Shown here: positions 27,369-62,931 of the stretch, one piece after another | Layout of the letters: every line of letters starts with the position of its first letter | Position numbering within the stretch: position 1 is the first letter of the stretch | Assembly (NCBI RefSeq): GCF_006352065.1 | Contig: NZ_CP040915.1 | Coordinates: 434,001-498,000 of the forward strand | DNA from: Georgenia yuyongxinii | GTDB taxonomy: Bacteria; Actinomycetota; Actinomycetes; Actinomycetales; Actinomycetaceae | DNA: 64,000 bases | Reading direction: 5' to 3' | Position numbers and translations under genes: made by a program | The notes under the pieces: generated by a model | What the model saw: only the letters and a program-made list of their open reading frames with translations | Databases searched by the model: none | Told to the model about the DNA's origin: nothing

Positions 27369-28195
27369 CAGCCGCGGCCGCCGTCGCGGTGCTGGTGGCC
27401 GCGGCCACCTGGCTGCTGCTGGCTCCCGCGCGAAGCTCACGGTCCCGCACGCCCGGCCCCGGCTGGGCAGCCGGGCGGTGGCGCGTCCGCCCGAGCTCGC
27501 GCCACCCGGCTCAGCCGGACCTGGACCTCGGGGTGCTCGTCACGGAGGTGGCCACCCGGCTGCGCACGGGGGTGACGGTCGAGAAGGCGTGGGCCGAGAC
27601 CTTCGCCCGGATGGGGCTGGAGGAGCGCGACCGGGCTGGACCTGTCCTGGGCGACGGCGGGGTGCCAGTGACGCTCGAACGCCTCGCCGTCACCTCCTCC
27701 CGCGCCCCCACCCGCACCCGCGAGATGTCATCTCCTCGGCGAGATGTCATCGCGCCTCCCAGCGGGCGGGCGGGCGGCCGCGGCCGACGGTGGCGCGTCA
27801 CGGGCCGTAGCCGCACGGCGCTCAGCACGGCGGCGCTCGCCGCCCTCCCCGGTGCGCTCGCGGCCTGCCGGCTCACCCACGAGCTCGGTGCACCGCTCGC
27901 GCAGGTGCTCGAGCGGTGCGCGCAGGGACTCACCGAGGCGGGCCACGCCCGCACCGCTCGCGCCGTTGCGCTGGCCGGTCCACGGGCCACCGCTCGGCTG
28001 CTCGGGTGGCTGCCGCTGCTGGGCCTCGGCCTGGGGATCGCCGTCGGGGCGGACCCGCTGGCAGTGCTGTTGGACGGTCGCGGCGGGACCGCTTGCCTGG
28101 TGCTCGGGCTCGCACTCATGGTGGCCGGGCGCCGCTGGGTGGCGGCCCTGGACCGGGCCGCGTCGTCGGCCGCCGACCTGGGCGGCGCCCGGTGA
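27365..28195 (+). CDS. tadB: TadB-type inner membrane protein with repeat insertion
   Basis: The 276-residue protein has an N-terminal helix (AAAAVAVLVAAATWLLL), a T2SSF-type domain with LVTEVATRLRTGVTVEKAW and then CRLTHELGAPLAQVLERC, and a C-terminal helix pair. The linker between these two blocks (about residues 110-140) contains two copies of the GAGATGTCAT repeat translated as REMSSPRRDV, which is unlike the rest of the protein. TadB and TadC form the pilus assembly platform. Both ends overlap neighbours by 4 bp. Confidence 0.87.
   Translation: MTAAAAVAVLVAAATWLLLAPARSSRSRTPGPGWAAGRWRVRPSSRHPAQPDLDLGVLVTEVATRLRTGVTVEKAWAETFARMGLEERDRAGPVLGDGGVPVTLERLAVTSSRAPTRTREMSSPRRDVIAPPSGRAGGRGRRWRVTGRSRTALSTAALAALPGALAACRLTHELGAPLAQVLERCAQGLTEAGHARTARAVALAGPRATARLLGWLPLLGLGLGIAVGADPLAVLLDGRGGTACLVLGLALMVAGRRWVAALDRAASSAADLGGAR
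27722..27751. repeat. GAGAYGTCA repeat, two units inside tadB
   Basis: Units GAGATGTCATCTCCTCGGC (27722-27740) and GAGATGTCATC (27741-27751) match the dispersed 19-bp-period repeat found at three intergenic sites. Here it is inside a reading frame and keeps it open. Confidence 0.88.
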
Positions 28196-28767
28196 TCCTC
28201 ATGGTGCTCGCGCTGCTGAGTGTGCTGCCGTGGGCGCTGCCAGGCCGCGCGGCCCTCGTCCGGCGGACCCGTGCCCGCACCGCACGGGACGCACGGGCGG
28301 CGGCCATCCGCGTCCCGCCGGGGGTCGACGTCGCCGTCCTGCTCGATCTCGCCGACGCGGCGCTCGGCGCGGGGGCCTCCGTGCCCGGCACCCTCCAGGC
28401 GATCGGCCGCGCCGTGGACCCGATGGGCACGGCGCCGGCGGGCGCCGTCGGACCCGCCCTACGGCAGGCGGGATCGGCTCTACTCCTTGGCGCGCCGTGG
28501 GCCGAGGCCTGGGCGATGACGCCGCCCGGGCTGCGTCCTCTCGTCGACGCCCTCGAGCCGGCCTGGCAGGACGGCGCCGCGCCGGGACCGCTGCTGCGCC
28601 GCGCCGCGGCTGCCGTTCGGGCCGACCGTCAGCAGCACGCCCAGGAGGCGGCCGCGCGGCTCGGCGTGCGCCTCGTGCTGCCCCTGGGACTGTGCTTCCT
28701 CCCTGCGTTCGTGCTCCTGGGCATCGTGCCTGTCGTCCTCGCCGCGGGCGGGGGGCTGCTCGGGTGA
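28192..28767 (+). CDS. tadC: TadC-type inner membrane protein
   Basis: The 191-residue T2SSF-domain protein has an N-terminal helix (LMVLALLSVLPWALPG), a cytoplasmic helical region with VDVAVLLDLADAALGAGASVPGTLQAIG, a basic segment (RADRQQHAQEAAARLGVRL), and a C-terminal helix (PAFVLLGIVPVVLAAGG). The GTG start overlaps the tadB stop (GTGA). It would normally be followed closely by the Flp pilin gene, but an unrelated gene pair intervenes here. Confidence 0.88.
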   Translation: MILMVLALLSVLPWALPGRAALVRRTRARTARDARAAAIRVPPGVDVAVLLDLADAALGAGASVPGTLQAIGRAVDPMGTAPAGAVGPALRQAGSALLLGAPWAEAWAMTPPGLRPLVDALEPAWQDGAAPGPLLRRAAAAVRADRQQHAQEAAARLGVRLVLPLGLCFLPAFVLLGIVPVVLAAGGGLLG

Positions 28768-28793
28768 GTGAGCGGCAGGCGATGCGGATGCCG

Positions 28794-29255
28794 TCATCGT
28801 GGCCGGGTCGGGTACGGACGGTCGGTGACGAGGTTCTTCATGACGAGGGTGGAGTTGAGGCGCTGCACCCCGGGAAGTGTGGACAGCACGTCGTCCTCCA
28901 GCTGGGCGTACGCATCGAGGTCCGCGGTCCGTACTCGCAGCAGATAGTCGGGGTCACCGAAGAGGCGCTGGGCCTGCAGCACGTTCGGCACGTTCCGGAC
29001 CGCAGCCTCGAAGGCCATGAGCGTCTCCCGGTCCTCCTGGCGCATCGTGACGAAGACCAACGCCTCGAAGCCAAGCCCGAGGGGAACCGGGTCGATGACC
29101 GCGCGGTAGCCGAGGATCGCACCCCCGCGTTCCAGGTCACGCACCCGACGATGGGTCGGAGACAGCGTGAGTCCCACCCGGGACGCCAGATCGGTGAGGC
29201 TGATTCGCCCCTCCTCCTGCAGCACCGCAAGAATCTCCCGGTCAAGATCATCCAT
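28794..29255 (-). CDS. Lrp/AsnC-family transcriptional regulator
   Basis: The 153-residue regulator has an N-terminal helix-turn-helix (LDREILAVLQEEGRISLTDLASRVGLTLSPTHRRV) and a C-terminal RAM ligand-binding domain (GFEALVFVTMRQED, FGDPDYLLRVRTADLDAYAQLEDD). It is divergent from a LysE-type exporter gene, the usual arrangement in which the Lrp protein senses an amino acid and controls export. The ATG at 29255 is chosen because the longer frame runs into the exporter's promoter region. The pair interrupts the tad locus. Confidence 0.93.
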   Translation of the reverse strand: MDDLDREILAVLQEEGRISLTDLASRVGLTLSPTHRRVRDLERGGAILGYRAVIDPVPLGLGFEALVFVTMRQEDRETLMAFEAAVRNVPNVLQAQRLFGDPDYLLRVRTADLDAYAQLEDDVLSTLPGVQRLNSTLVMKNLVTDRPYPTRPR

Positions 29256-29353
29256 GCAGTGAATTCTGCCCGTAAATGCGGCTTCGGGCGAGGATTTGCG
29301 GAGCACCTTGCGGCAGTTCCTCCGTAGCCTTCCGAAGGACGGAAGGGGGCGTG

Positions 29354-29995
29354 ATGGAACCGGCAGCACTCGCGATGTTCAGCGGCATCGCAGCGGCGAT
29401 GGTGGCGGTCCCCGGTCCGGATTGGGTGTTCGTGCTTGCGGCCGGCACCCGGAACCGTGTCGTCCTACCGGCGGTGACCGGGTTGATGATCGGCTATGCG
29501 CTCATCACCACGGCGGTCGCGCTCGGCGTCGGCCCCGTGGTCGCCGCGCAGCCGGTCATCTTGACGACGCTGTCGATCGCCGGCGCCGGGTACCTGGCGT
29601 ATCTCGGCATCGGCATTCTCAGGTCCGCGCGCACCGCGGCGCCCGCAGGTGCCGCCGCCCACGACACTCCTTGTTGGGGGGCGTTCATCCGCCGAGGAAT
29701 CGGCGTGACGGCCCTGAACCCCAAGGCACTGCTGCTCTTCCTGGCGATCCTTCCGCAGTTCGCGCGTCCCTCTGCCCCCTGGCCGATGCCGGCACAGCTT
29801 GCCGTGCTGGGAGCTGTGTTCATCGCGTTCGCGGCCGTGTTCTACACGATGCTCGGCTACCTCGCAGACCGCGTCTTCGGCCCACGCCCGCGCCTGAACG
29901 CCATCATCTCGCGAGTCGCCGGCATCGCGATGCTCGCCGTCGGGGCGCTCATGCTGGGAGAACAGGCAATTCACGCCTGGCCGGGGAACGCCTGA
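29354..29995 (+). CDS. LysE/RhtB-family amino acid exporter
   Basis: The 213-residue protein has six helices and the LysE-family pattern VAVPGPDWVFVLAAGTRN, followed by LGIGILRSART and GVTALNPKALLLFLAILPQF. It exports amino acids or related metabolites from the cytoplasm. The ATG is preceded by AAGGGGG at about 7 bases. Divergent from an AsnC/Lrp regulator at 98 bp. The exact substrate is unknown. With its regulator it forms a cassette placed inside the tad operon. Confidence 0.93.
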   Translation: MEPAALAMFSGIAAAMVAVPGPDWVFVLAAGTRNRVVLPAVTGLMIGYALITTAVALGVGPVVAAQPVILTTLSIAGAGYLAYLGIGILRSARTAAPAGAAAHDTPCWGAFIRRGIGVTALNPKALLLFLAILPQFARPSAPWPMPAQLAVLGAVFIAFAAVFYTMLGYLADRVFGPRPRLNAIISRVAGIAMLAVGALMLGEQAIHAWPGNA

Positions 29996-30259
29996 CCCGG
30001 CGCAGACCCGCCTGCGCGGCGGGTGAACGCTCGGCCGCGGCATCAATGCAGACACTGCCGTGCCGAGCCGTCTCGATCCACAGCGCGCGCGACTCTGGCG
30101 CTGACGCGGCGGACCGTTGCGTCTCATGCCACCCCGTCCACAGCCGGCTCGGCCGGGTCGACGGCGATCCCCCCGCGTCCAGCAACCTCGGTGGCAACGG
30201 TTCGGCACCAGCCCGACCGGCACCAAGGGGCCCCAGCGCCCCGGAGAAAGGGGAGCACG

Positions 30260-31354: not shown

Positions 31355-32215
31355 TCAGCGTCCCGCCAGGTAGTCCAGCTGGGCCTCGACGGACATGCGG
31401 GCCGCCGCCCAGAGGGCCCGGTCCACGTCGGCGTACACCTTCGCCACCACTGCCATCGGGTCCGCCGCGGTCGGCGGCAGGCCCAGCTCGTCGAGCGCCC
31501 GCCGGATCTCGACCAGGCGCTGTTCGCGGTGGCGCCTGTACTCGCGGGCAACGGCGACGACGTCGGGACGCTCGGGGCCGTGGCCGGGCAGCATGACGCC
31601 GTCACGGCCCTGGTCGATCAGGAGGTTCAGGGAGTCCATGTACTGCGCCAGGCTGCCGTCGGCGGGGTCGAGGACGGTGGTGCCGCGGCCCAGAACCGTG
31701 TCGCCCGTGAGGAGAGCGCGCTCCGGCGGCGCGGCTAGGTGCGGTGTGTGCTTCGAGGCCGGCGGCTGATGTTCGACCAGGAGACTGATCGAGTCGGCGG
31801 TGTGCCCCGGGGTGTGCAGGACGGTGATTCGCAGGCCCGCTGCCTGGACGACCTCCCGGTCACGCAACGGCGCCGCGCCGCGGCAGAAGTCGCTGGACCA
31901 TGCGCGCACGGGAGCTCCGGTGCGCGCGGCGAGCGCGTCGAGGCCGCCGGTGTGGTCGTGGTGGCGGTGGGTGACGAGGAGGGCTTCGACGCGGCCGCCG
32001 TCGGTTGAGCATGCGGCGGTCACCGCGGCGGTGTGGGCCGGTGCGTCCGCCGGGCCCGGGTCGACCACAACGCATCCGTCGACGCCCGGGGCTCGCAGGA
32101 TCCAGGTGTTGGTGCCCTCAAGCTCCATCGCGCCGGGGTTGTGGCACAGCACCACCGACGCGAAGCCGGTAACGGCCCGCGGAACCTCGTAGGCGGGGTG
32201 GGTGGGAGTGTTCAT
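31355..32215 (-). CDS. Metallo-beta-lactamase-fold hydrolase (RNase Z/glyoxalase II-like, Rv3677c type)
   Basis: The 286-residue protein carries the motif THRHHDHTGGLDAL, then VLHTPGHTADSISLL, LLTGDTVLGRGTTV and VMLPGHGPERPD, giving a full dinuclear Zn set. A C-terminal winged-type region follows (VEIRRALDELGLPPTAADPMAVVAKVY). The mycobacterial homologue sits beside ridA and crp; here it is about 17 kb away, with its ATG overlapping the helicase stop (ATGA). A thioesterase or nuclease activity is possible; the substrate is not known. Confidence 0.9.
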   Translation of the reverse strand: MNTPTHPAYEVPRAVTGFASVVLCHNPGAMELEGTNTWILRAPGVDGCVVVDPGPADAPAHTAAVTAACSTDGGRVEALLVTHRHHDHTGGLDALAARTGAPVRAWSSDFCRGAAPLRDREVVQAAGLRITVLHTPGHTADSISLLVEHQPPASKHTPHLAAPPERALLTGDTVLGRGTTVLDPADGSLAQYMDSLNLLIDQGRDGVMLPGHGPERPDVVAVAREYRRHREQRLVEIRRALDELGLPPTAADPMAVVAKVYADVDRALWAAARMSVEAQLDYLAGR

Positions 32216-34758
32216 CGGGACGCACGCCGACCGTTCGCGGGGATCGTGCCGCCGCCGCCGCCACCGTCGCCGACGCCGTCGCCGCCGCCTGCCGCGCCGG
32301 TGCCACCGGCGCCCGCCGGCGCCGCCCCGAGCAGCAGCCTGAGCAGCCGGACCGCGCCGTGCTTGTCCAGGGGGGAGTTGCCGTTGCCGCACTTGGGCGA
32401 CTGCACGCAGCTGGGGCAGCCGTCCTGGCACCGGCAGGCGGTGATCGCGTCCAGCGTGGCCCGCAGCCACTGCGCGGCCGCCCGGTAGCCGCGCTCGGCG
32501 AAGCCCGCGCCGCCGGGGTAGCCGTCGTGCACGAACACAGTGGGCTGCCCGGTTTGTGGGTGGACCGCCGTCGAGAGCCCGCCGATGTCCCATCGGTCGC
32601 AGGTGGCCAGCAGCGGCAGCAACCCGATCGAGGCGTGCTCGGCGGCGTGCAGCGCGCCGGGCAGCGCGTCCTTTCCAACGCCGGCCGACTCGCACGCCTC
32701 GGCGCTGAGCGTCCACCACACCGCCGTGGTCGGCAGCACCCGCTCGGACATGTCCAGCGGGTACGAGCCGATGATGTCCAGGCCCGGCACGCGGCGCTTG
32801 TCGTAGCCGGTGACCTGGCTGGTGACCTCGACGTCGCCGAAGGACCACAGCACCGCGGCGTCCGCGGAGCTCCAATCCTGCCGGTCCCGGGTGCCGATGA
32901 TCCGCACCGACGACGTCGAGCGGGCCTTGGTCCGGTGCCCCACCTCCGCGTCCTCGTGGACCAGGGCCACCTCGTCCTCCAGGGCATCGACGACGAACGT
33001 GCGGCCCTGGTGCACGTACACCGCGCCGGGGAAGACGGTTCCATCGGCACGGGCGCCGTCCACGGTGCCCAGGACCGTGCCGGTGCCGATCTCCACCACC
33101 TGCACGGGCCGGTCGAGGCCGCCGCGCAAGTCGGTGAGGTCCTGCGCCCGCTCGGGCCGGGCGAAGTTCCAGAACCACCCGTTCGGGCGGCGCCGCAGCA
33201 GCCCCCGGCGGACGAGCTCGTCGAGCAGCGTCCCGTCGGGCAGCCCGAAGAGCGGCAGGTCGGCGTCGGTCAGCGGTGACTCGGACGCGGCCGCGCACAG
33301 GTGCGGGGCGAGGACATAGGGGTTGGCGGGGTCGAACGTCGTCGCCTCCACCCCCGAGCCGAAGATCGCCTCCGGGTGGTGCACGAGGAACCCGTCGAGG
33401 GGGTCGTCGCTCGCCACGAGCACCGCCACGCCGTCGGCCCCGGCGCGGCCGGCCCGGCCTGCCTGCTGCCACAGGGACACCCGGGTGCCTGGCCAGCCGG
33501 CGATGATGACGGCGTCGAGCCCGGCGACGTCCACCCCGAGCTCCAGGGCGTTCGTGGTGGCCAGCGCGAGCAGCTCCCCGCTGCGCAGCGCCCGCTCCAG
33601 CTCCCGGCGCTCCTCGGGCAGGTACCCGCCGCGGTAGGCGGCCACCCGGGCCGCCAGCTCTCCGTCGACCTCGCGCAGGCGCCGGCGTGCCTGCTCGGCG
33701 ATGACCTCGGCGCCGTATCGCGACCGGACGAAAACCAGGGTGCGGGCCCCGGCGGAGACCAGGTCCGCGAGCAGGTCGGCCGCCTCGGCGGTGGCGCTGC
33801 GCCGCGGGCCGTCCTCGAGCGCCTCGCTCGCGGCGTCGGTGGCAGCGAGGTCCACGCCCTGGCCCGGCCAGGTCGCCGCCCACCCCGTCGACAGCGCCGG
33901 CTGCCACAGCGCGACGGATCGCCGGCCGGACGGCGCGGCGTCCTCGGTGACGGCCACGACGTCCTCGGTTGGCACCCCGACCAGGCGGGCCGCGGTCAGC
34001 GCCGGCTCGGCGGTGGTGGCGGAGGCGCACAGCACGGTCGGCTGCGCCCCGTAGTACGCGGCGAGCCGCAGCAGCCGGCGCAGCACCAGGGCCACGTGGG
34101 CGCCCAGCACCCCGCGGTAGGCGTGGCACTCGTCGACGACCACGTACCGCAGCCCGCGCAGCAGCCGCTGCCAGCGACGGTGCGCGGGGAGCATCGAGAA
34201 GTGGAGGAAGTCGGGGTTGGAGAGGACGACGTCGGCGTGGTCGCGGGCCCAGTCACGCTCGGTCAGCGGCGTGTCGCCGTCGCACGTGGTGACCCGGATG
34301 CCGCGGAGCTGAGCCGCGTCCAGGAGGCGGTGCAGCCCGGCGAGCTGGTCCGCCGCCAGCGCCTTGGTGGGGGAGAGGTACAGGGTCGTCGGGCGGCGGG
34401 TGTAGTCCCCGATCCGGCCTGAGGCGGGGCTGGCGGCCTGGGCGGCGCCCTCCCGGACGGCCGAGAGCACGGGCAGCCACGCGGCCAGAGACTTGCCCGA
34501 GCCGGTGCCGGTCGCGATCACGGTGTGCCGGCCGGCCCACGCGGCCTCGGCGGCGGTGACCTGATGCTCCCAGGGCGCACTGACCCCCATGCGTCTGTAG
34601 CCGGCCACCACGTCCGGGTCCGCCCACGTGGGCCAGTCCGCCCGGCGGCCCTCGCGGGCCGGGAGCTGCTCGAGGTGCACCAGCCGCCCGTCGCGCGCAC
34701 CGGTGGCGCGCAGCAGGTTCACAAGGTCGGGGCCAGACACGGTCCCAGTGTGCGTCAC
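32212..34758 (-). CDS. DEAD/DEAH-box helicase with C-terminal Cys cluster (MrfA/YprA-like)
   Basis: The 848-residue SF2 helicase has Walker A VIATGTGSGKSLAAW, LSPTKALAADQ, DECHAYRG (DEAH variant), CASATT, then helicase-C motifs ALATTNALELGVDVAGLD and WQQAGRAGRAG. A DUF1998-like C-terminal region ends in a four-Cys cluster, CRCQDGCPSCVQSPKC, matching MrfA/YprA DNA-repair helicases. The tail is Gly-rich. It probably works on damaged DNA in the cytoplasm. GTG 34758 is used; a GTG at 34740, with CACACT six bases ahead, is an alternative leaderless start. A GAGAYGTCA array lies upstream. Confidence 0.92.
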   Translation of the reverse strand: MTHTGTVSGPDLVNLLRATGARDGRLVHLEQLPAREGRRADWPTWADPDVVAGYRRMGVSAPWEHQVTAAEAAWAGRHTVIATGTGSGKSLAAWLPVLSAVREGAAQAASPASGRIGDYTRRPTTLYLSPTKALAADQLAGLHRLLDAAQLRGIRVTTCDGDTPLTERDWARDHADVVLSNPDFLHFSMLPAHRRWQRLLRGLRYVVVDECHAYRGVLGAHVALVLRRLLRLAAYYGAQPTVLCASATTAEPALTAARLVGVPTEDVVAVTEDAAPSGRRSVALWQPALSTGWAATWPGQGVDLAATDAASEALEDGPRRSATAEAADLLADLVSAGARTLVFVRSRYGAEVIAEQARRRLREVDGELAARVAAYRGGYLPEERRELERALRSGELLALATTNALELGVDVAGLDAVIIAGWPGTRVSLWQQAGRAGRAGADGVAVLVASDDPLDGFLVHHPEAIFGSGVEATTFDPANPYVLAPHLCAAASESPLTDADLPLFGLPDGTLLDELVRRGLLRRRPNGWFWNFARPERAQDLTDLRGGLDRPVQVVEIGTGTVLGTVDGARADGTVFPGAVYVHQGRTFVVDALEDEVALVHEDAEVGHRTKARSTSSVRIIGTRDRQDWSSADAAVLWSFGDVEVTSQVTGYDKRRVPGLDIIGSYPLDMSERVLPTTAVWWTLSAEACESAGVGKDALPGALHAAEHASIGLLPLLATCDRWDIGGLSTAVHPQTGQPTVFVHDGYPGGAGFAERGYRAAAQWLRATLDAITACRCQDGCPSCVQSPKCGNGNSPLDKHGAVRLLRLLLGAAPAGAGGTGAAGGGDGVGDGGGGGGTIPANGRRASR

Positions 34759-34860
34759 GGCACCGACAACCTCGCCCAGTCATCCCCCCAGCCCCCGGCC
34801 CGCGCAGCGGCCACCCACCCCATCCCCGCGCACACATCACCGCGACGCGTCGACCTTTCG

Positions 34861-34923
34861 CGACATCTCATGACGTCTCACCGAGGACTTGACGTGTCAC
34901 CGAGGACTTGACGTCTCGCGCAC
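34861..34923 (-). repeat. GAGAYGTCA repeat array, three 19-bp units plus GTGCGC edge
   Basis: Read on the minus strand, GTGCGC is followed by exactly three 19-bp units: GAGACGTCAAGTCCTCGGT, GACACGTCAAGTCCTCGGT and GAGACGTCATGAGATGTCG. It lies in the 285-bp interval between the divergent helicase and STAS genes; nothing else is recognised there. Confidence 0.9.
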
Positions 34924-35043
34924 TCGCGCGGGTGGGGTTGGCAGGCACCTGCCAGGGACACAAGTCCCCTCTTCCGGGGGCTGGTCGTGGTGGCGCGGCG
35001 TGCCACGATGTGGGCTCAGGGGGCAGAAGGGGGGACCGGACGA

Positions 35044-35490
35044 GTGAACTTCTCCGTGCAACGACGCGAGGTGGACGGCGTACCGGTCGTGAGCGCCGTC
35101 GGGGAGCTCGACGGCGGCTCGGTCGAGCTGCTGGCCGGCGAGCTCGAGCTCGCGCTGGACGCGCTGCCACCGGCGATCATCGTGGACCTCGCGGGCGTGA
35201 CCTTCATCGACTCCACCGGTGTGCGAGCTGTGACGCGCAAGCAGGACAGCCTCGTCTCGCTGGAGACCCGGCTGTATGTGGTCGCCCCCGCGGACCGGAT
35301 CCGGGAGGTTTTCGTCCTGACCGGGACGGCCGACGGTGTGCCTCTCCACCGCAGCCTGGACGAGGCGCTCGTGGCGGCCGCTCAGGTGCCGATCATGCAG
35401 GCCACGGCCGTGGTGCGGGTCCCCGCACACGGCCTTGCGGGCCCCGCGGATGCGGTCGCGGTTCCTCCCAATCGTCAATCGGGTGCCTGA
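35044..35490 (+). CDS. STAS-domain anti-sigma-factor antagonist
   Basis: The 148-residue protein is a single STAS domain: FSVQRREVDGVPVVSAVGELDGG, IIVDLAGVTFIDSTGVRAV with the phosphorylatable Ser in the DSTG motif, and LYVVAPADRIREVFVLTG. A C-terminal extension of about 35 residues follows. It probably antagonises a serine-kinase anti-sigma factor by partner switching; no kinase or sigma gene lies in the window. The GTG at 35044 is chosen because the domain starts there; AAGGGGGG lies about 13 bases upstream. Confidence 0.9.
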   Translation: MNFSVQRREVDGVPVVSAVGELDGGSVELLAGELELALDALPPAIIVDLAGVTFIDSTGVRAVTRKQDSLVSLETRLYVVAPADRIREVFVLTGTADGVPLHRSLDEALVAAAQVPIMQATAVVRVPAHGLAGPADAVAVPPNRQSGA

Positions 35491-39651: not shown

Positions 39652-41298
39652 ATGACCGCCCGCCCCAGCCCCGCCCCGCCCGCCGGCCCCGCGACGGACG
39701 TCGGCGTCTTGCGCGGCGACCTCGGTGCGGCCGGGTTCACTGTCGACGGCGTGGGCGACCTGCTCGGCGACGTCGCCGGCGCCGCCCTGCACCGCGAGCA
39801 GCGCGTGCCCGCGCTACGGCTGGCCCGCGGCGTCGACTCGCCCGCCGCCACCCTCGTTCGTCTCTTCATGCTCGGCGACGAGGTCACCACCGCCGAGCTC
39901 GCCGCCGCCCTGCCCGGCACCGGCCCGGCGGGCGCTCAGGCGCTCGGCCTGGTGGCGCGGGCGGGCGCCGGCCACGCCGACCCCGTGCGCGCCACCGTCG
40001 ACCTGCGGCCCTACGCGGCCGCCGACGCCGCGGGGGCGGCGCACTGGTGGGTGGCGTCCGACCTCGGCGAGGTGGCGACCGGCACCAGCCTGCGCGCCGA
40101 CCACGTGCTCGGCATCGGCGGGGCGTCCACCACGCTGGCGCAGCTGACCGTGCGAGACCCGCGCCCGCGGGTGCTGGACCTCGGCACGGGCTGCGGGGTC
40201 CAGGCACTGCACGCCGCGCGCCACGGCGAGCACGTGGTGGCCACCGACATCTCGGCCCGGGCACTCGGTTTCGCCGCCTTCAACGCCGCCCTGGCAGGGA
40301 CGGACCTGGACCTGCGCCGCGGGTCGCTGCTCGAGCCGGTCGCCGGGGAGGCGTTCGACCTCGTCGTGTCCAACCCGCCCTTCGTCATCACGCCCACCGC
40401 CGCCTACGATGCCGGCCTGCCGCTCATGGAGTACCGCGACGGCGGACGAGGCGGCGACCTGCTCGTGCGTGAGCTGATCACCACCGTCGGCGCCCATCTC
40501 GCTCCGGGCGGGGTCGCGCAGCTGCTGGGCAACTGGGAGCACCACCGCCGCGAGGACTGGCGCGACCGGGTGCTCGGCTGGCTCGCGGCGTCGGGCCTGG
40601 ACGGATGGGTAGTGCAGCGCGAGGTCCAGGACCCGGCCGAGTACGCGGAGCTGTGGCTGCGCGACGGCGGCCTGCGCCCCGAGGTGGACCGGCCCGGCTA
40701 CGAGGCTGCCTACGCCGCGTGGCTGGGCGACTTCGAGGCGCGCGGCGTCGAGGCCGTCGGGTTCGGTTACGTGCTGCTGCGCCGCCCCGGTCAAGCGGGT
40801 CGGCCGTGGCACCGCGTGGAGGAGGTGAGCGGCCCGGTGCGACAGCCGCTGGGCCAACACGTCCTCTACGTCCTCGCCGCCCGGGACTGGCTGGCCGCGC
40901 GCGGCGTGCCCGACGGCGATGGCACCCCCAGCGCTCGTGTGCCTGACGGTGGTGGCACGCCCAGCGCTCGTGTGCCCGACGGCGCCCGCGGCCTCACCGT
41001 CCTGGCGGACCACCGGTTCGCCGTCGCGCCCGACGTCACCGAGGAACGCTTCCTCACGCCCGGCGCGTCCGACCCCCAGGTGATCCAGCTGCGCCAGGGC
41101 GGCGGACTGGGCCGGGTGGTCCGGCCGGGCACGCTGGTCGCGGGCGCCGTCGGTGCCTGCGACGGCGAGCTCACCCTCGGGCAGATCATCGGCGGCCTCG
41201 CCGCACTGCTCGACCTGCGCATTGACGACGTCGCCGCCGAGGTGCTGCCCGCCGCCCGTGAGCTGCTCCTCGACGGCTTCCTCCGTCCGGTGCCCTGA
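39652..41298 (+). CDS. Class I SAM-dependent methyltransferase (HemK/PrmC-like motifs)
   Basis: The 548-residue protein has an N-terminal helical domain (about 1-150) that resembles an actinobacterial methyltransferase-associated domain, a SAM-binding motif RVLDLGTGCGVQALHAA, and the catalytic NPPF in VVSNPPFVITP (N-methyltransferase type). A C-terminal domain of about 200 residues is present. The substrate may be protein Gln or a nucleic-acid base; not decidable. Between residues about 419 and 440 two 33-bp in-frame duplications encode VPDGxGTPSAR. TACGCT six bases before the ATG indicates a leaderless start. M. tuberculosis has a similar gene next to topA. Confidence 0.85.
   Translation: MTARPSPAPPAGPATDVGVLRGDLGAAGFTVDGVGDLLGDVAGAALHREQRVPALRLARGVDSPAATLVRLFMLGDEVTTAELAAALPGTGPAGAQALGLVARAGAGHADPVRATVDLRPYAAADAAGAAHWWVASDLGEVATGTSLRADHVLGIGGASTTLAQLTVRDPRPRVLDLGTGCGVQALHAARHGEHVVATDISARALGFAAFNAALAGTDLDLRRGSLLEPVAGEAFDLVVSNPPFVITPTAAYDAGLPLMEYRDGGRGGDLLVRELITTVGAHLAPGGVAQLLGNWEHHRREDWRDRVLGWLAASGLDGWVVQREVQDPAEYAELWLRDGGLRPEVDRPGYEAAYAAWLGDFEARGVEAVGFGYVLLRRPGQAGRPWHRVEEVSGPVRQPLGQHVLYVLAARDWLAARGVPDGDGTPSARVPDGGGTPSARVPDGARGLTVLADHRFAVAPDVTEERFLTPGASDPQVIQLRQGGGLGRVVRPGTLVAGAVGACDGELTLGQIIGGLAALLDLRIDDVAAEVLPAARELLLDGFLRPVP
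40906..40971. repeat. In-frame 33-bp tandem duplication in methyltransferase gene
   Basis: Two 33-bp copies (40906-40938, 40939-40971) differing at a few bases encode VPDGDGTPSAR and VPDGGGTPSAR, followed by a partial third copy (VPDG). It sits in a predicted loop and preserves the frame. Confidence 0.9.
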
Positions 41299-45181: not shown

Positions 45182-47962
45182 GTGACCACCTCCCGCAAGC
45201 TCGTGATCGTCGAGTCGCCCGCCAAGGCGCGCACCATCGGCGGGTACCTCGGCCCCGACTTCGACGTCGAGGCCAGCGTGGGCCACATCCGCGACCTTCC
45301 CCAGCCCTCCGAGCTGCCCGCGGACATGAAGAAGGGCCCCTACGGCAAGTTCGCCGTGGACGTCGAGGGCGACTTCGACCCCTACTACGTGGTCGACTCG
45401 GACAAGAAGAAGAAGGTTACCGAGCTCAAGCGGGCCCTGAAGGACGCTGACGAGCTCTACCTCGCCACGGATGAGGACCGCGAGGGCGAGGCCATCGCGT
45501 GGCACCTGCTCGACGTCCTCAAGCCCACGGTGCCGGTCAAGCGGATGGTCTTCCACGAGATCACCCGCGAGGCCATCACCCGGGCCCTGGAGAACACCCG
45601 CGAGCTCGACACCCGGCTCGTCGACGCCCAGGAGACCCGCCGCATCCTCGACCGCCTGGTGGGCTACGAGGTCTCCCCGCTGCTGTGGCGCAAGATCAAG
45701 CCCGGCATCTCCGCCGGCCGTGTGCAGTCCGTGGCCACCCGCATGGTGGTCGAGCGCGAGCGGGAGCGGATGGCGTTCCGGTCGGCGTCCTACTGGGACG
45801 TCTCGGGCACCTTCACCGGTGGCGACGAGGCCGTGGACCGCCGCGGCTTCGAGGCCCGCCTCGTCACCCTGGACTCCCGGCGCGTGGCCACCGGCCGCGA
45901 CTTCGGCGACGACGGCCACCTCAAGCCCGCCGCGCAGAAGGCCGACGTGGTCCACCTGCACCAGGCCGAGGCGACCGCGCTCGCCGCGGCCCTGGAGCGG
46001 GCCGAGGCATGCGTGGTCTCCATGGAGACCAAGCCCTACACCCGCCGCCCGGCCGCACCGTTCACCACCTCCACGCTGCAGCAGGAGGCCTCCCGCAAGC
46101 TGCGCATGAGCGCCCGGGAGACCATGCGCACCGCGCAGGGGCTGTACGAGAACGGCTTCATCACCTACATGCGTACCGACTCCTCGGCGCTGTCCGGGCA
46201 GGCCATCGCCGCGGCCCGCCGCCAGGCCGCCGAGCTCTACGGCCCCGAGTACGTGCCGGACAAGCCCCGCGCGTACGGCGCCAAGGCCAAGGGCGCCCAG
46301 GAGGCGCACGAGGCCATCCGGCCCGCCGGGGACTCCTTCCGGACCCCCGCGCAGGTGGCCAACCAGCTCACCGGCGCCCAGTTCAAGCTCTACGAGCTCA
46401 TCTGGAAGCGCACCGTCGCCTCCCAGATGGCCGACGCCCGCGGCTCCACCGCCACGGTGCGCCTGGCAGCGACCGCCGTGCTCGGCGACGGCGCCCGCCA
46501 GGCCGAGCTGACGGCGTCGGGCACGGTCATCACCTTCCGCGGCTTCCTGGCCGCCTACGAGGAGGGCCGCGACGCCGAGCGGTACGACGCCGCCGCGGAC
46601 AAGGAGACCCGCCTGCCGGTGCTGAAGGAGGGCGACGCCGTCGTCACCGATGCGGTCACCGCCGAGGGGCACGAGACCACCCCGCCGCCGCGCTACACCG
46701 AGGCCTCGCTGGTCAAGGCGCTGGAGGAGCGCGGCATCGGCCGCCCCTCCACGTACGCGGCGACCATCTCCACCATCACCGACCGCGGCTACGTCGACCG
46801 ACGCGGGCAGGCGCTCGTGCCCACCTGGCTGGCGTTCTCCGTGGTGCGCCTGCTCGAGGAGAACCTTCCCCGGCTCGTCGACTACGACTTCACCGCCGAG
46901 ATGGAGGGCGACCTTGACCGCATCGCCTCCGGCACCGAGGACCGGGTCGGCTGGCTCTCACGGTTCTACCGCGGCGACGCCGCCGCCGCCCGGCCGGGCC
47001 TGAAGACCCTGGTCGAGGGGCTCGGGGACATCGACGCCCGCGCCGTCAACAGCATCGACATCGGCGACGGCATCACGCTGCGGGTGGGCCGCTACGGGCC
47101 CTACCTGGAGACCGCCCCCGCGGAGGAGGGCGCCGAGGGCCGGCGCGCCAGCGTGCCCGACGACGTCGCCCCCGACGAGCTCACCGTGGACTTGGCCAAG
47201 GAGCTGCTCGAGCGGCAGGCCGACGACGGTCGCGAGCTCGGCGCCGACCCGGCCACCGGGCACATGATCATCGCCAAGAACGGCCGCTTCGGCCCCTACG
47301 TCACCGAGGTCCTCCCCGAGGAGGACGACGGCGACGCGGCGGCTGCCACCACCGGCGACAGCCCGAACGGCACCGCCCCCGCGGGCGCGAAGAAGAAGCC
47401 CGTGCGGAAGAAGGCCGCCAAGGCCAAGCCGCGCACGGCGTCGCTGTTCAAGTCCATGCAGCTCGAGACCGTCACCCTCGAGGACGCGCTGCGGCTGCTG
47501 TCCCTGCCGCGGGTGGTCGGCGCCGACCCCGAGGGCGTGGAGATCACCGCCCAGAATGGCCGCTACGGGCCGTACCTGAAGAAGGGCACCGACTCGCGTT
47601 CCCTGACCAGCGAGGACCAGATCTTCGACGTCACGGTCGAGGAGGCACTGGCCATCTACGCCCAGCCCAAGCGCGGGCGCGGCGCCACCGCCAAGCCGCC
47701 GCTGCGTGAGCTGGGGGAGGACCCGGTCTCGGGGAAGCCGGTGTCCGTCAAGGACGGCCGCTTCGGCCCCTACGTCACCGACGGCACCACCAACGCGACC
47801 CTGCGCAAGGACGACGCGCCCGAGTCGATCACCCCCGAGCGGGGCTTCGAGCTCCTCGCGGAGAAGCGGGCCAAGGGCCCGGCCAAGAAGCCGGCCCGCA
47901 AGCCCGCGGCGAAGAAGACCACCACCAAGACGGCCGCGAAGAAGGCGCCGGCGACGAAGTAG
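45182..47962 (+). CDS. topA: DNA topoisomerase I
   Basis: The 926-residue type IA topoisomerase has a Toprim domain (KLVIVESPAKARTIGGYLG, LATDEDREGEAIAWHL), the catalytic Tyr at about residue 329 in GFITYMRTDSSAL, and the repeated C-terminal domains carrying NGRFGPYV/NGRYGPYL/DGRFGPYV units. It ends in a Lys/Ala-rich tail (about 25 residues) that helps DNA binding in actinobacterial enzymes. No Zn-finger Cys cluster is seen, as in other actinobacteria. The GTG start has AAGGAAC at about 9 bases. A repeat array follows 15 bases past the stop. Confidence 0.96.
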   Translation: MTTSRKLVIVESPAKARTIGGYLGPDFDVEASVGHIRDLPQPSELPADMKKGPYGKFAVDVEGDFDPYYVVDSDKKKKVTELKRALKDADELYLATDEDREGEAIAWHLLDVLKPTVPVKRMVFHEITREAITRALENTRELDTRLVDAQETRRILDRLVGYEVSPLLWRKIKPGISAGRVQSVATRMVVERERERMAFRSASYWDVSGTFTGGDEAVDRRGFEARLVTLDSRRVATGRDFGDDGHLKPAAQKADVVHLHQAEATALAAALERAEACVVSMETKPYTRRPAAPFTTSTLQQEASRKLRMSARETMRTAQGLYENGFITYMRTDSSALSGQAIAAARRQAAELYGPEYVPDKPRAYGAKAKGAQEAHEAIRPAGDSFRTPAQVANQLTGAQFKLYELIWKRTVASQMADARGSTATVRLAATAVLGDGARQAELTASGTVITFRGFLAAYEEGRDAERYDAAADKETRLPVLKEGDAVVTDAVTAEGHETTPPPRYTEASLVKALEERGIGRPSTYAATISTITDRGYVDRRGQALVPTWLAFSVVRLLEENLPRLVDYDFTAEMEGDLDRIASGTEDRVGWLSRFYRGDAAAARPGLKTLVEGLGDIDARAVNSIDIGDGITLRVGRYGPYLETAPAEEGAEGRRASVPDDVAPDELTVDLAKELLERQADDGRELGADPATGHMIIAKNGRFGPYVTEVLPEEDDGDAAAATTGDSPNGTAPAGAKKKPVRKKAAKAKPRTASLFKSMQLETVTLEDALRLLSLPRVVGADPEGVEITAQNGRYGPYLKKGTDSRSLTSEDQIFDVTVEEALAIYAQPKRGRGATAKPPLRELGEDPVSGKPVSVKDGRFGPYVTDGTTNATLRKDDAPESITPERGFELLAEKRAKGPAKKPARKPAAKKTTTKTAAKKAPATK

Positions 47963-47977: not shown

Positions 47978-48054
47978 GTGCGCGAGATGTCATCTCCTCC
48001 GTGAGACGTCATCTTTGGTGAGACGTCATCTCGTCCGTGAGATGTCATCTGGGG
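47978..48054 (+). repeat. GAGAYGTCA repeat array, four units plus GTGCGC edge
   Basis: GTGCGC is followed by units GAGATGTCATCTCCTCCGT (47984-48002), GAGACGTCATCTTTGGT (48003-48019), GAGACGTCATCTCGTCCGT (48020-48038) and GAGATGTCATCTGGGG (48039-48054). It fills the space between topA and the converging membrane-protein gene, so it could act as a terminator region. Confidence 0.93.
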
Positions 48055-48067
48055 CCGGTCCGCACCG

Positions 48068-49221: not shown

Positions 49222-50268
49222 ATGGAAGCCCAGGTGACGGCGCCGAACCTGCTCCCCGCGCCCGCAGATCCCACGGACGCACCGCCGCTGCGCTGGGGCA
49301 TCCTCGGCGCTGGCGGGATCGCCCGCCGCTTCGCCCGTGAGGTGCCCGCCCGCTCGGCCCAGCAGGTGCTGGCCGTCGCCTCCCGGGACCAGCGCCGCGC
49401 CGACGCCTTCGCCGCCGAGCACGGCGTGGGCCGCGCCTACGGCAGCTACGAGCTCCTGGTCACCGACGAGGACGTCGATGTCGTCTACATCGCCACCCCG
49501 CACAGCGCGCACCGCGACCACGCCCTCCTCGCGCTGGAGGCCGGCAAGCACGTGCTGGTGGAGAAGGCGTTCACCCGCAACGCGGACGAGGCCCTCGAGG
49601 TGCTCGACGCCGCCCGCGAGCGGCACCTGTTCGTCATGGAGGCCATGTGGACGCGGTTCCTGCCGCACATGGTCGCCCTCCGCGGACTGATCGGCTCCGG
49701 CGCCCTCGGCGAGATCCTTGCCGTCACGGCCGACCACGGCCAGCGGCTGGACACCGTCGAGCGGCTCCTCGCCCCCGAGCTGGCCGGCGGGGCGCTGCTG
49801 GACCTCGGCGTGTACCCCGTCTCGTTCGCATACGACGTGCTCGGCGCCCCCGCATCCGTCCACGCTGCCGGCGCCCTCACGGACGTCGGCGTCGACGCGC
49901 ACGAGGCCGTGACCCTGACCTATGCCGGCACCCGGGCGGTTGCGGTCTGCACCTCGAACATGTGGGCCACCACCGCCACGACCGCGTCGGTGGTGGGCAC
50001 CGAGGGGCGGGTCGACATCGACGGCCCCTTCTACCGGCCGACGTCGTTCACGGTCACCCCGTTCAGTGGCGCGCCGTGGCGGTTCGAACCCGTCCCGGGG
50101 ATCACGGCAGCGGACGGCGGGTTCGAGTTCCAGGCCGCCGAGGTGGCCCGGTGCGTCGCGGACGGGCGGCGCGAGTCGGTGGACATGCCCTGGCGGGCGA
50201 CCCTCGAGGTCATGGAGGTCCTGGACGAGGTCCGCCGCCAGCTGGGGGTCGTCTACCCCGGGGAGTGA
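49222..50268 (+). CDS. Gfo/Idh/MocA-family oxidoreductase
   Basis: The 348-residue protein has the N-terminal dinucleotide motif RWGILGAGGIARRFAREV, VVYIATPHSAHRDHALLALEAGKHVLVEKAFTRN (the catalytic EKxF/P loop), and a C-terminal Gfo/Idh alpha/beta domain with GGALLDLGVYPVSFAYD. It reduces or oxidises sugars or inositols with NAD(P). The substrate is unknown. TACGCT six bases before the ATG gives a leaderless-type start. Its 3' end is included in a 36-bp tandem duplication that runs past the stop codon. Confidence 0.92.
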   Translation: MEAQVTAPNLLPAPADPTDAPPLRWGILGAGGIARRFAREVPARSAQQVLAVASRDQRRADAFAAEHGVGRAYGSYELLVTDEDVDVVYIATPHSAHRDHALLALEAGKHVLVEKAFTRNADEALEVLDAARERHLFVMEAMWTRFLPHMVALRGLIGSGALGEILAVTADHGQRLDTVERLLAPELAGGALLDLGVYPVSFAYDVLGAPASVHAAGALTDVGVDAHEAVTLTYAGTRAVAVCTSNMWATTATTASVVGTEGRVDIDGPFYRPTSFTVTPFSGAPWRFEPVPGITAADGGFEFQAAEVARCVADGRRESVDMPWRATLEVMEVLDEVRRQLGVVYPGE

Positions 50269-50333
50269 CGGGCACCAGGCCGCGTGGTCGCCCGAGTGGA
50301 GTGACGGGCACCAGGCCGCGTGGTCTACCGAGT
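50262..50333. repeat. 36-bp tandem duplication spanning the oxidoreductase stop codon
   Basis: Copies at 50262-50297 and 50298-50333 differ at only a few bases near the 3' end (TCGCCC versus TCTACC), and a partial third copy follows. The first copy contains the gene's last codon and TGA, so the repeat arose after the gene end was in place. Confidence 0.92.
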
Positions 50334-50404
50334 GCAGTGACGCGCACGCCTGGACCGGTGGATGACGCGTCAGCTCCGTGGGCGCGGCTGGTTACCCTTG
50401 CCAG

Positions 50405-60034: not shown

Positions 60035-60727
60035 ATGACCACCATCCTGCTCGTCGAGGACGAGGAGTCCTACCGCGAACCGCTCACGTTCAAGCTCGAG
60101 CGTGACGGCTTCGAGGTGGTGCCGGTGGCCGACGGGCTCAACGCCCTGACCGCGTTCGACCGCGGCGGCATCGACGTCGTGCTGCTCGACCTCATGCTCC
60201 CGGGTCTGTCCGGCACCGAGGTGTGCCGGCAGCTGCGCCAGCGCGGCAACGTGCCGGTCATCATGCTCACCGCGAAGGACAGCGAGATCGACAAGGTCGT
60301 CGGGCTGGAGCTCGGCGCGGACGACTACGTCACCAAGCCGTACTCCTACCGCGAGCTCGTCGCCCGCGTGCATGCCGTGCTGCGCCGCACCGGCGTCGGG
60401 GACGACCTCGACGAGCCCGCGGTGCTGGCCGTCGGGCGGGTGCGGATGGACGTGGACCGACACGAGCTGCGGGTCGACGGCGAGCCGGTCGCGATCCCGC
60501 TGCGCGAGTTCGAGCTGCTCGAGCTCTTTCTGCGCAACCCCGACCGGGTGCTCACCCGTGGGCAGCTCATCGACCGGGTCTGGGGGTCCAACTACGTCGG
60601 CGACACCAAGACGCTCGACGTCCACGTCAAGCGGGTGCGCGCGAAGATCGAAGAGGACCCGTCGCGGCCCACGATGCTGCAGACGGTGCGCGGCCTGGGG
60701 TACAAGCTGATCTCCCCGTCGGTCTAG
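60035..60727 (+). CDS. regX3: Phosphate-response regulator RegX3
   Basis: The 230-residue OmpR/PhoB-type regulator has a receiver domain (VEDEESYREPL, phospho-acceptor D52 in VVLLDLMLPGLSG, Lys in DDYVTKPYS) and a winged helix C-terminal domain (ELFLRNPDRVLTRGQLIDRVWG, LDVHVKRVRAKIEEDPSRP, TVRGLGYKL). It activates phosphate-starvation genes. It is co-transcribed with senX3. The PhoU gene is divergent, so the three make one phosphate module. Confidence 0.96.
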   Translation: MTTILLVEDEESYREPLTFKLERDGFEVVPVADGLNALTAFDRGGIDVVLLDLMLPGLSGTEVCRQLRQRGNVPVIMLTAKDSEIDKVVGLELGADDYVTKPYSYRELVARVHAVLRRTGVGDDLDEPAVLAVGRVRMDVDRHELRVDGEPVAIPLREFELLELFLRNPDRVLTRGQLIDRVWGSNYVGDTKTLDVHVKRVRAKIEEDPSRPTMLQTVRGLGYKLISPSV

Positions 60728-60826
60728 CTGCGCCAGAGCGCCCAGGCCCAGCGGGCCGGGACGACGGGAGGCGCGCTCCCGCCGTCGGGCGTGCTGACGA
60801 CGCCGTGCGGCGGCACCACCTACCGG

Positions 60827-61294
60827 TCAGGCCTGACCGAGGACCTCGTCGTACGGGGGGATGGTGCCGTCGAGCACCGGCACGGACACGCTGATCTGGG
60901 CGCCATCCTCCAAACCCACGGTGGAGGGGAGGAGTCCGCCGGGCGCGACGTCGACGGACGCGATCCGCACGCCGTCGTCGAGCAGGTTGGCGGTCTTGCC
61001 GGCCGGCACCCGCACCGGGACCCCGTTGCCCTCGCCGAGGCTCAGCGTGACGAGCGCGTTCTCCCTGGAGCGGTTGACGACGGCGCCGACCACGTGGCCC
61101 TCGCCGCCCTCGCTCTCGGTCAGCACCATGAGGTTCTCGACGACGACGCCGTCCGCGACCTCGACGCGGATGCCGTCGCTGGGCGCGTACTCCATCTGCG
61201 TGGTGATCGGGTTCGCGACCGAGCACCCGGCCAGGACGAGCGCGGCGCCGAGCATCGTGGCGGCGATGGCGGAACGGCGGATGGTGCGGGCCAC
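60827..61294 (-). CDS. Lipoprotein of unknown function (DUF461/PCu_AC-like position)
   Basis: The 155-residue protein has a lipoprotein signal peptide (SAIAATMLGAALVLAGC) with lipobox LAGC and a mature beta-rich domain containing YAPSDGIRVEVADGVVVENLMVLTE, NRSRENALVTLSLGEG and VRVPAGKTANL. This pattern resembles secreted 'NRTDQPVTVTL'-type domains of actinobacterial lipoproteins beside regX3/carD. The GTG at 61294 has GAAGGAG 8 bases ahead. It is anchored outside the membrane; the ligand, perhaps a metal, is unproven. Confidence 0.82.
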   Translation of the reverse strand: MARTIRRSAIAATMLGAALVLAGCSVANPITTQMEYAPSDGIRVEVADGVVVENLMVLTESEGGEGHVVGAVVNRSRENALVTLSLGEGNGVPVRVPAGKTANLLDDGVRIASVDVAPGGLLPSTVGLEDGAQISVSVPVLDGTIPPYDEVLGQA

Positions 61295-61517
61295 GGAAGG
61301 TCTCCTTCGTCGTTTCTGCTGCGGGCGCGCCGCAGCGCGGCGGCCTCCCAGGGGGAGATTACCGGAGGAACTCAACGCCGCAGCCCCACCGCAGGCGTGT
61401 CCGCCGAGCCCGGCGCTGCCGCATAGTTCCGCGCCGCGTGGGCGGTGGCGGGCCGTGTCGACCGGCCACACGTGTCTATTCGCTCACGAGCCGCAGAAAT
61501 CCGCCATTTCCGCGTGC

Positions 61518-61523
61518 TAGAAT
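61518..61523 (+). promoter_or_regulatory. carD promoter -10 element
   Basis: TGCTAGAAT gives an extended -10 (TAGAAT) 33 bases before the carD ATG, with a leader containing GAGGGAG as ribosome-binding site. No clear -35 is seen, typical for CarD/RbpA-dependent promoters. Confidence 0.65.
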
Positions 61524-61556
61524 AGGGGCCTTCACGACCTGAGGGAGCACCCAGAC

Positions 61557-62039
61557 ATGACCTTCGCTGTCGGCGAGACCGTTGTCTATCCGCATCACGG
61601 CGCGGCGCTGATCGAGGATATCTCTACCCGGACCATCCGCGGAGAAGAAAAGCTCTACCTGCACCTGCGTGTCGCGCAGGGTGACCTGACCATCCAGGTT
61701 CCCGCCGAGAACGTCGACCTCGTCGGTGTCCGCGACGTCGTCGGTACCGAGGGTCTGGAGAAGGTCTTCGAGGTGCTGCGCGCCCCGTACACCGAGGAGC
61801 CCACCAACTGGTCGCGCCGCTACAAGGCGAACGTCGAGAAGATTGCCTCCGGCGACATCATCAAGGTCGCCGAGGTCGTCCGGGACCTCTCCCGTCGCGA
61901 CACCGACCGCGGCCTGTCCGCGGGCGAGAAGCGCATGCTCGCCAAGGCCCGTCAGATCCTCGTCTCCGAGCTCGCCCTGGCGGAGAAGACCGAGGAGGTC
62001 AAGGCCGAGGCCATGCTCGACGAGGTCCTCGCGTCCTGA
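61557..62039 (+). CDS. carD: RNA polymerase-binding transcription factor CarD
   Basis: The 160-residue protein has an N-terminal RNA-polymerase-interacting Tudor-like domain ([33 protein letters not shown]) and a C-terminal helical DNA-binding domain with [17 protein letters not shown], containing the Trp that wedges into the open bubble. It stabilises open complexes at many promoters including rRNA. GAGGGAG precedes the ATG by about 9 bases. IspD follows after a stem-loop, as in mycobacteria. Confidence 0.96.
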
Positions 62040-62062
62040 CCCCGAGAGTGATCGACCGCAGC

Positions 62063-62094
62063 ACGCGCGTGATGGCACCGGCCGTCACGCGCGT
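62063..62094. terminator. Stem-loop between carD and ispD
   Basis: ACGCGCGTGA pairs with TCACGCGCGT across a 12-base loop, 24 bases past the carD stop and 19 bases before the ispD start. It may terminate or attenuate read-through into ispD. No T-run follows. Confidence 0.5.
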
Positions 62095-62112
62095 CGTGCG
62101 TCCGGGGGCGGC

Positions 62113-62835
62113 GTGAGCACGGCCGCCGTGCTGACCGCGGCCGGCTCGGGCACCCGGCTCGGCCGGGCGCTGCCCAAGGCGCTCGTCGAGCTCGCCGGGG
62201 TACCGCTGGTGGTGCGCGCCGCCCAGGGGCTCGCGCTGGCCCGCTGCCTGGAGCTCGTGGTCGTCACCGTGCCGCCGCACGAGGTGCGCGGCTTCCAGGC
62301 CCTGTTCCTGGGCGGGTACGTGCCCGGCACCCGCCTGGCCGCCCGCATCGTCCCGGGCGGGGCTACCCGGCAGGCCTCCGTCGCCGCCGGGCTTGCCGCA
62401 CTGCCCGACGACGTCGACGTCGTCCTGGTGCACGACGCCGCCCGCTGCCTCGCCCCGCCCGCGCTGGTGCGCAGCGTCGAGGCCGCCGTGCGGCAGGGGC
62501 ACCGCGCCGTCGTCCCCGCCCTGCCGGTGACCGACACCATCAAGGCCGTCGGGCCGGCCCACTCCAGCGGGGCGGAACCTGTCACGGCCACCGTGGACCG
62601 TGGCGCGCTTCGTGCCGTGCAGACCCCGCAGGGCTTCGACCGGGCGCTGCTCGAGGCCGCGCACGCCGCCGGGGCCGCCCGGGCCGCGGACGAGGCGGTG
62701 GCCGCGTCCGACGACGCCGGCCTGGTCGAGGCGCTCGGCGAGCCCGTGTGGGTGGTGCCCGGCCACGAGCGGGCCATGAAGATCACGACCCCGCGGGACC
62801 TCGCGCTGGCCCACCTGCTCGTGGCCGAGGGCTAA
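62113..62835 (+). CDS. ispD: 2-C-methyl-D-erythritol 4-phosphate cytidylyltransferase
   Basis: The 240-residue MEP-pathway enzyme shows AVLTAAGSGTRLGRALPKALVEL (nucleotide-binding AAGxGxR...PK), GGATRQASVAAGL, VLVHDAARCLAPPAL, and TPQGFDRALL. It converts MEP and CTP to CDP-ME for isoprenoid synthesis. The GTG start follows CGGGGGCG at 5 bases. Family length is normal. IspF lies 190 bp downstream, separated by a repeat array rather than overlapping, as the two genes often do. Confidence 0.94.
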   Translation: MSTAAVLTAAGSGTRLGRALPKALVELAGVPLVVRAAQGLALARCLELVVVTVPPHEVRGFQALFLGGYVPGTRLAARIVPGGATRQASVAAGLAALPDDVDVVLVHDAARCLAPPALVRSVEAAVRQGHRAVVPALPVTDTIKAVGPAHSSGAEPVTATVDRGALRAVQTPQGFDRALLEAAHAAGAARAADEAVAASDDAGLVEALGEPVWVVPGHERAMKITTPRDLALAHLLVAEG

Positions 62836-62841
62836 CTATCT

Positions 62842-62931
62842 GTGCGCGAGATGTCATCTTCTCCGCGAGATGTCATCCCGCCCGCCCTCCCGCGAGATGT
62901 CATGATCTCACCGAGATGTCATGGCTTCCCC
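62842..62931 (+). repeat. GAGAYGTCA repeat array, four units plus GTGCGC edge
   Basis: GTGCGC is followed by GAGATGTCATCTTCTCCGC (62848-62866), a 27-bp unit (62867-62893), GAGATGTCATGATCTCACC (62894-62912) and GAGATGTCATGGCTTCCCC (62913-62931). It lies between ispD and ispF, where a polycistronic transcript would be expected. Confidence 0.93.

Follow-up and report, generated by a model that had tools for sequence, protein, structure and literature searches.

The closest known kind to the repeats described here is that of the repetitive extragenic palindromic (REP, or palindromic unit, PU) elements and the bacterial interspersed mosaic elements (BIMEs), for which GTAG- and CGTC-tagged superfamilies are distinguished in the consulted part of PMC3733652. 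The repeats form a family of 19-bp units with a GAGAYGTCA core, four arrays of which lie in a 64,000-nucleotide stretch of Georgenia yuyongxinii (the window; positions 434001-498000 of the single 4,171,640-bp contig of the source genome, G000). G000 was compared with eight relatives of the same genus (G107, G126, G022, G133, G094, G119, G076 and G052), which show 76-86% identity to it across the longest matches.

Like REP elements and BIMEs as described in that part of the source (PMC3733652), the 19-bp family has many short extragenic copies, which lie in tandem and convergent gaps near the 3' end of the upstream gene. Its inverted dimers are predominantly head-to-head, it differs among related species, and its copies are possible RNA or DNA elements. 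Head-to-tail dimers are negligible in the CGTC families according to the same text, whereas 19-bp head-to-tail rows dominate here. By eye, the units did not contain the 5-13 bp stem next to an unpaired tag (GTAG or CGTC) that marks a REP; CGTC was found inside the G126 core, where it does not form a tag next to a stem, and unit-pair folding was not kept between species dialects. The REP-associated tyrosine transposase domain (RAYT/Y1_Tnp, PF01797) gave 0 matches in G000, the control search being positive in 5 of 14 genomes. Because the tag, the stem within the unit and the Y1 transposase were each looked for and not found, the family is not filed as a REP/BIME member. The word stem 'Actinobacter' is absent from PMC3733652. 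Calls of REP-like sequences in the phylum already exist, since three Actinomycetota genomes are tabulated in the consulted part of a 2025 REP-finder paper (PMC12306157).

REP doublets forming hairpins (REPINs) share the inverted doublets of the 19-bp family, which differs from them in its tandem rows, in the lack of a detected RAYT/Y1 domain in G000 and in some cross-species positions with different spelling. In REPIN/RAYT work the inverted doublets reportedly persist within a lineage. The DNA uptake sequences (DUS) of the Neisseriaceae, from the portion of PMC3630211 consulted, also comprise species dialects of a short word and inverted pairs linked to terminators; unlike these, the present repeats have few intragenic copies and are set in 19-bp rows. 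Short intergenic direct repeats are likewise known from Beggiatoaceae, where 169 sets of TAACTGA in one genome were proposed as post-transcriptional regulator sites (PMC4679880, consulted in part). Those sets lie mostly just upstream of start codons, whereas the present rows lie just downstream of stops and have dialects and inverted partners. No description of a 19-bp gene-end family was found in the literature titles and abstract openings listed. The word GAGATGTCA occurs in 429 papers; the 20 covered by title include a Streptomyces genome paper.

Abundance, anatomy and position of the repeats

The repeats are best read, from sequence, as a genus-restricted family of gene-end arrays whose rows may act as protein-binding platforms, a function that we consider plausible though short of probable. 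The initial annotation had claimed a non-random dispersed family. This was borne out in the random-frequency check, in which GAGAYGTCAT occurred 229 times in G000 (117 + 112 on the two strands) against 0 for the reversed pattern. Among the matches listed, 161 of the 229 cores were placed, in 90 clusters. An apparent plus bias among these listed matches, considered as replication-strand polarity, was rejected as an artefact, the other strand being comparably filled.

Anatomy was read in 78 blocks of G000 (511,398 bases, ∼12% of the genome), picked around core matches; the exceptions were the window and a 240-kb stretch at 2.99-3.23 Mb. Genes were called on the blocks with a home-made codon-usage caller and no annotation was used. 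Clusters were defined with a 19-mer profile in which the GTC core was fixed. This gave 395 hits in 511 kb against 18 in the mirror sequence, and 113 clusters, among which lone in-gene hits are probably chance. The hairpin-placement count and the G000 gene list of the orthology test (below) were taken from an older cluster set, in which some ++ rows had been typed +- because of the near-palindromic unit and a spacing of 23.

The unit is 19 bp long with the core GAG-n-n-GTCA, position 4 being mostly A (G000 form GAGATGTCATCTTCTCCGY). Rows consist of one to several units arranged head-to-tail, and 135 of 165 same-strand neighbours in the 511 kb are exactly 19 bp apart. Inverted arrangements were head-to-head in 36 cases, tail-to-tail in 1 and complex in 1. 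Clusters of one orientation made up 75 of the 113 (43 plus-only and 32 minus-only at the threshold used). Units of G126 and G107 hardly varied at core positions 1-3 and 6-9 and were more variable in the spacer, an outcome favoured by the unit-collecting patterns.

Convergent gaps held 35 of the 113 clusters, tandem gaps 53 and divergent gaps 3; a further 13 were in called genes (9 of them single hits) and 9 had no gene call on one side. At the level of cores, 11 of 225 fell within called genes. The tandem-gap clusters were sense-only in 31 cases, antisense-only in 6 (31 vs 6, p 4e-5), head-to-head in 14, tail-to-tail in 1 and complex in 1. Sense rows in these gaps were at a median of 21 nt past the stop and 179 nt from the next start, and 26 of the 31 sense-only rows were closer to the stop. 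A row is typically placed 10-40 nt past a stop codon and reads in the same direction as the gene that it follows. For 42 sense single-orientation rows (antisense-only, divergent and in-gene clusters being excluded), the strongest 44-nt hairpin was downstream of the row in 26, inside it in 11 and upstream in 5, counts made without control for the greater room that rows near stops leave downstream. Since the hairpin is mostly downstream of the row, many rows probably fall within the transcript, past the stop codon and ahead of the terminator.

Larger units were also found. Near-identical 52-bp palindromes occur at three loci (two identical, the third with one difference), and composites of ∼160 bp with 83-91% identity occur at 503.0, 934.1 and 1878.0 kb. 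In the blocks read, the three composites are present in either orientation, each enclosed by head-to-head units. Their centre of ∼110 bp carries 13-bp inverted repeats, GGAAATGCTCGCG (imperfect at 934 kb), and a second GC hairpin. Unit pairs 0.7-2 kb apart that enclose frames were considered as full-length insertion sequences with array ends and rejected, no transposase being recognised in them by eye.

Arrays of the window

The four arrays sit where the initial annotation had placed them, as was confirmed by pattern and 19-mer profile scans. The arrays and the two genes whose 3' ends they follow are as follows.

27722..27759, plus strand: two-unit 19-bp array inside a TadB-like frame (27365-28195), frame open
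34861..34917, minus strand: three-unit array, 19-bp spaced (GAGACGTCA, GACACGTCA, GAGACGTCA)
45182..47962, plus strand: topA (Topoisom_bac, 4e-116), array at its 3' end
47984..48057, plus strand: four-unit array, spacing 19, 17, 19, located 21 nt past the topA stop codon
62113..62835, plus strand: ispD (IspD, 8.7e-57), array at its 3' end
62848..62931, plus strand: four-unit array, spacing 19, 27, 19, located 12 nt past the ispD stop codon and before ispF

These were the only multi-unit sites in the window; other profile hits were isolated and weaker, and the mirror of the window gave no hit of at least 8 bits. GAGAYGTCATC with up to 2 mismatches matched 51 times in the window against 30.4 in 100 shuffles (sd 6.2, largest 47). 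For the annotated GAGAYGTCA family the near-exact cores and the spacing were non-random, but the 9-mer with 1 mismatch was not enriched in the window (26 vs 27.5 expected). The common GTGCGC start, from which a copied unit had been argued, held for three of the four arrays (topA, helicase-side and ispD-ispF). Across the 511 kb, however, it preceded only 5 of 148 array starts, CCCGC or CCCGT being commoner; GTGCGC is therefore not the family boundary and the argument fails genome-wide. The unit is a near-palindrome in G000, as had been noted, but its proposed folding was not kept in the related dialects tested.

The helicase-side array lies between two divergent genes, one for a DEAD-box/MrfA-like helicase (32212-34722, minus strand) and one for a STAS-domain protein (35044-35490, plus strand), an exceptional placement (3 of 113 clusters). 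This gap, 34722-35044, is a likely promoter region, unlike nearly all other array sites. The topA-side array lies ahead of the stop of a called convergent gene. The TadB-like protein gave no Pfam hit. Its frame stays open across the array, as annotated, and the comparison with relatives that had been called for placed the array in a variable linker, with gaps or unrelated residues in the 7 aligned relatives (all but G052).

Species dialects and shared gene ends

Pairs of GAGNNGTCA at 19-bp spacing were matched in 8 of 213 genomes of the taxonomic family, five of these in the genus: 109 in G000, 147 in G107, 195 in G126, 7 in G133 and 3 in G094. There were 0 in G022, G052, G076 and G119, and the three genomes outside the genus, all of one other genus, held 1 each. 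The G022 dialect, GASNGGTCAWSTMCT, was found at 131 places in G022, 38 in G107 and 0 or 1 in the other seven; among the matches listed its spacing was mostly near 30-55 bp, not 19 bp. Three-unit rows were present in 3 of 396 genomes of the order, a draw in which G000 was the sole member of its genus; the other two genomes hold one row each. Public genome contigs, where close relatives may be absent, gave two isolated matches (Duganella and Flavobacterium), near the estimated chance level of ∼0.5, and plasmid, phage and viral collections gave no match to the family. In a de novo search of 3' regions of the relatives for further 19-bp rows, these were clear only in the samples of G000 and G126, several G126 stretches having been picked for holding rows; a 156-kb sample of G107 gave no 19-bp row at 15/19 identity. 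As far as searched, the family is confined to one genus.

Loci were compared under names assigned by visual inspection of the protein ends (recB-like, acs-like, yaeQ-like, rpf-like, aldh, ppc, tpiA, rluB, xerD, rho and odhA/kgd). Among 37 array-adjacent genes of relatives (G107 16, G133 10, G126 9, G094 2), 11, at 9 sites, had an array-adjacent G000 orthologue, a count in which shared sites may be favoured since several G107 loci were chosen for G000 spelling. This sharing has p 4e-7 at an assumed background of 4.5% and p 6e-6 at 5.9% (the rate at G000 stops, 14 of 239 having a sense core no more than 250 nt away); counted as 9 instead of 11, p is 2e-4. At the odhA/kgd-like end, G126 has four units 24 nt past the stop, G000 has four of other spelling 18 nt past the stop, and G094 has one exact and one degenerate core. 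Each of these rows lies ahead of a GC-rich hairpin.

At eight loci not picked for G126, sense arrays were found in G126 at four: recB-like, tpiA and rluB by script, and xerD on reading (the script counts 1 core there, the frame running into the row, and more units appear on reading). No G126 row was found at topA, rpf-like or acs-like, and at aldh there was only the neighbour's antisense row. Against a background of at least 2 sense cores within 250 nt of 0/64 stops in G126 (7/239 in G000), p is 7e-5 for 4/8 and 9e-4 for 3/8. G022 has 2 cores at ppc, 2 at xerD, 1 at acs-like and 1 at odhA/kgd (past the hairpin), with a GAC form at tpiA, at yaeQ-like and after ispD; no core was found in G022 at rho, rluB, rpf-like or topA. 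Shared positions are mainly those of G000 and G126, with few in G107 and G133. No row was found in the topA 3' gap of any of the 8 relatives, nor in the ispD-ispF gap of the 7 relatives read, save a single G022-dialect unit in G022 (G052 was read at topA and ispD-ispF). New sites, for example topA and tadB, seem to arise.

At the 3' end of rho (the terminator Rho gene, by eye) there are two sense and two inverted units, both in G000 (2947535) and in G126.

Proposed function and alternative explanations

Places shared without a common spelling (mainly G000-G126), units alike within a row and drifting spacers point to inherited rows, homogenisation within genomes and steady gain and loss. On this comparison, positions seem to be inherited and units to have been made uniform inside each genome, some sites, topA and tadB among them, being more recent gains. 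A constant core and 19-bp step, together with variable spacers and the absence of a common fold, favour recognition by a protein, with the qualifications that core constancy is partly by construction (the core being the search key) and that G022 keeps the core and not the 19-bp step.

Each row would then be a multi-site platform for a dedicated core-reading protein, either on DNA in an iteron-like manner or on the RNA of the 3' untranslated region (UTR). A bound row could mark or aid the end of transcription through insulation, termination or topological relief. Gyrase has been proposed to give topological relief at REPs. Copy number would shift by tandem slippage and units would be homogenised by short-tract recombination or copying, while the preference of the putative binder would drift along with them and give rise to dialects. 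A protein-binding array and a transcript-end structure, both offered in the initial annotation, are live options. A narrower form, in which a dedicated protein reads sense 19-bp iteron rows as a lineage-specific transcript-end code, with fast co-evolution of binder and rows and with dialects at partly the same gene ends, is possible but doubtful. The genus provides a natural experiment on REP-like repeats, with position partly conserved and sequence swapped across a few species, and sisters without a detected copy. The binder should be identifiable through the dialect rows or by presence and absence in the genus, which would open the role of repeats at gene ends to direct study in high-GC Gram-positive bacteria.

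Several observations weigh against the protein-platform reading. No row was found in G119 or G076 at any locus read, and G119, G076 and G052 are without the pair pattern, so rows are dispensable. A role at gene ends cannot sensibly apply to the array inside tadB, to those in the 3 divergent gaps or to the 6 antisense-only clusters. Few positions are shared beyond G126. At loci not chosen for the genome concerned, G107 shows one core, at 1 of 8 loci (recB-like), and G133 has rows at 0 of 8, its rows at recB-like and acs-like being the reason those loci entered the sample. G094 scored 0 of 10 by script at loci other than odhA/kgd, with a degenerate hairpin at rho by eye. The 52-bp palindromes and ∼160-bp composites show that larger pieces were copied to new places, and the hairpin counts carry the spatial limit given above. 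The protein that would read the rows is itself putative.

The serious rival is a mobile element with a strong gene-end preference: a selfish miniature inverted-repeat transposable element (MITE) or REPIN-like element, moved by a putative enzyme that prefers terminator-proximal targets. Head-to-head pairs would be full copies and tandem rows the products of decay or amplification. We rate it as possible, though improbable on balance. The three-locus composites and palindromes are in line with it, as are the topA gap without a row in 8/8 relatives, the array in the tadB linker, copy numbers from 0 to ∼200 within one genus and the few G000 sites common to G107 and G133. Arrays at the same gene with different spelling, above all in G000 and G126, speak against it, as does the lack of matches in the mobile (plasmid, phage and viral) collections. 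The transposase search in G000 covered the rve and Y1 families: Y1_Tnp was absent, and the 3 matches to rve (PF00665) had no GAGAYGTCA core within ∼1.5 kb, the profile scores there being isolated and weak. The 'mobile or copied unit' of the initial annotation survives in part, in the apparent new sites at topA and tadB and in the copied larger pieces; the same-gene arrays of different spelling are not predicted by simple recent insertion.

Sense orientation and placement ahead of a hairpin would also suit a 3'-UTR RNA element, in which the row is the target of an RNA-binding protein or an RNase, or folds to protect the mRNA 3' end. Two G000 units in tandem fold more stably than their shuffles (z -2.5), and a head-to-head pair is its own complement, but tandem folding did not hold for the further dialects tested (z -1.1, 0.2, -1.7, -0.4 and 0.8). 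No array from 8 sources matched Rfam at the gathering score, the 2 window tRNAs being the only matches. We regard this explanation as unlikely.

By analogy with the Neisseriaceae, the repeats might be a DNA uptake signal, a short word enriched by transformation; both dialects and head-to-head pairs at gene ends are described for DUS in the part of PMC3630211 consulted. The scarcity of cores inside genes, the rigid 19-bp rows and a total of a few hundred copies, with none detected in three sister species, make this very improbable. That the arrays are simply intrinsic terminators is scarcely credible: long hairpins can arise from head-to-head pairs at gene ends, but the plus-only and minus-only clusters lack an inverted partner at the threshold applied, and in 26/42 sense single-orientation arrays the strongest hairpin is separate and downstream.

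Other repeats

Other short repeats were seen at two of the gene ends compared. The ispD-ispF gap of G076 and G052 holds GATGTGACG / GTGACATCG-like repeats, which are a separate or a very diverged family, and the tpiA 3' gap holds CACGCGTGTCGG-like tandem repeats in G119 and ∼37-bp repeats in G133. The window itself contains three clean tandem repeats unrelated to the 19-bp family, with periods of 15 bp (20927-21005), 33 bp (40906-40984) and 36 bp (50262-50347).

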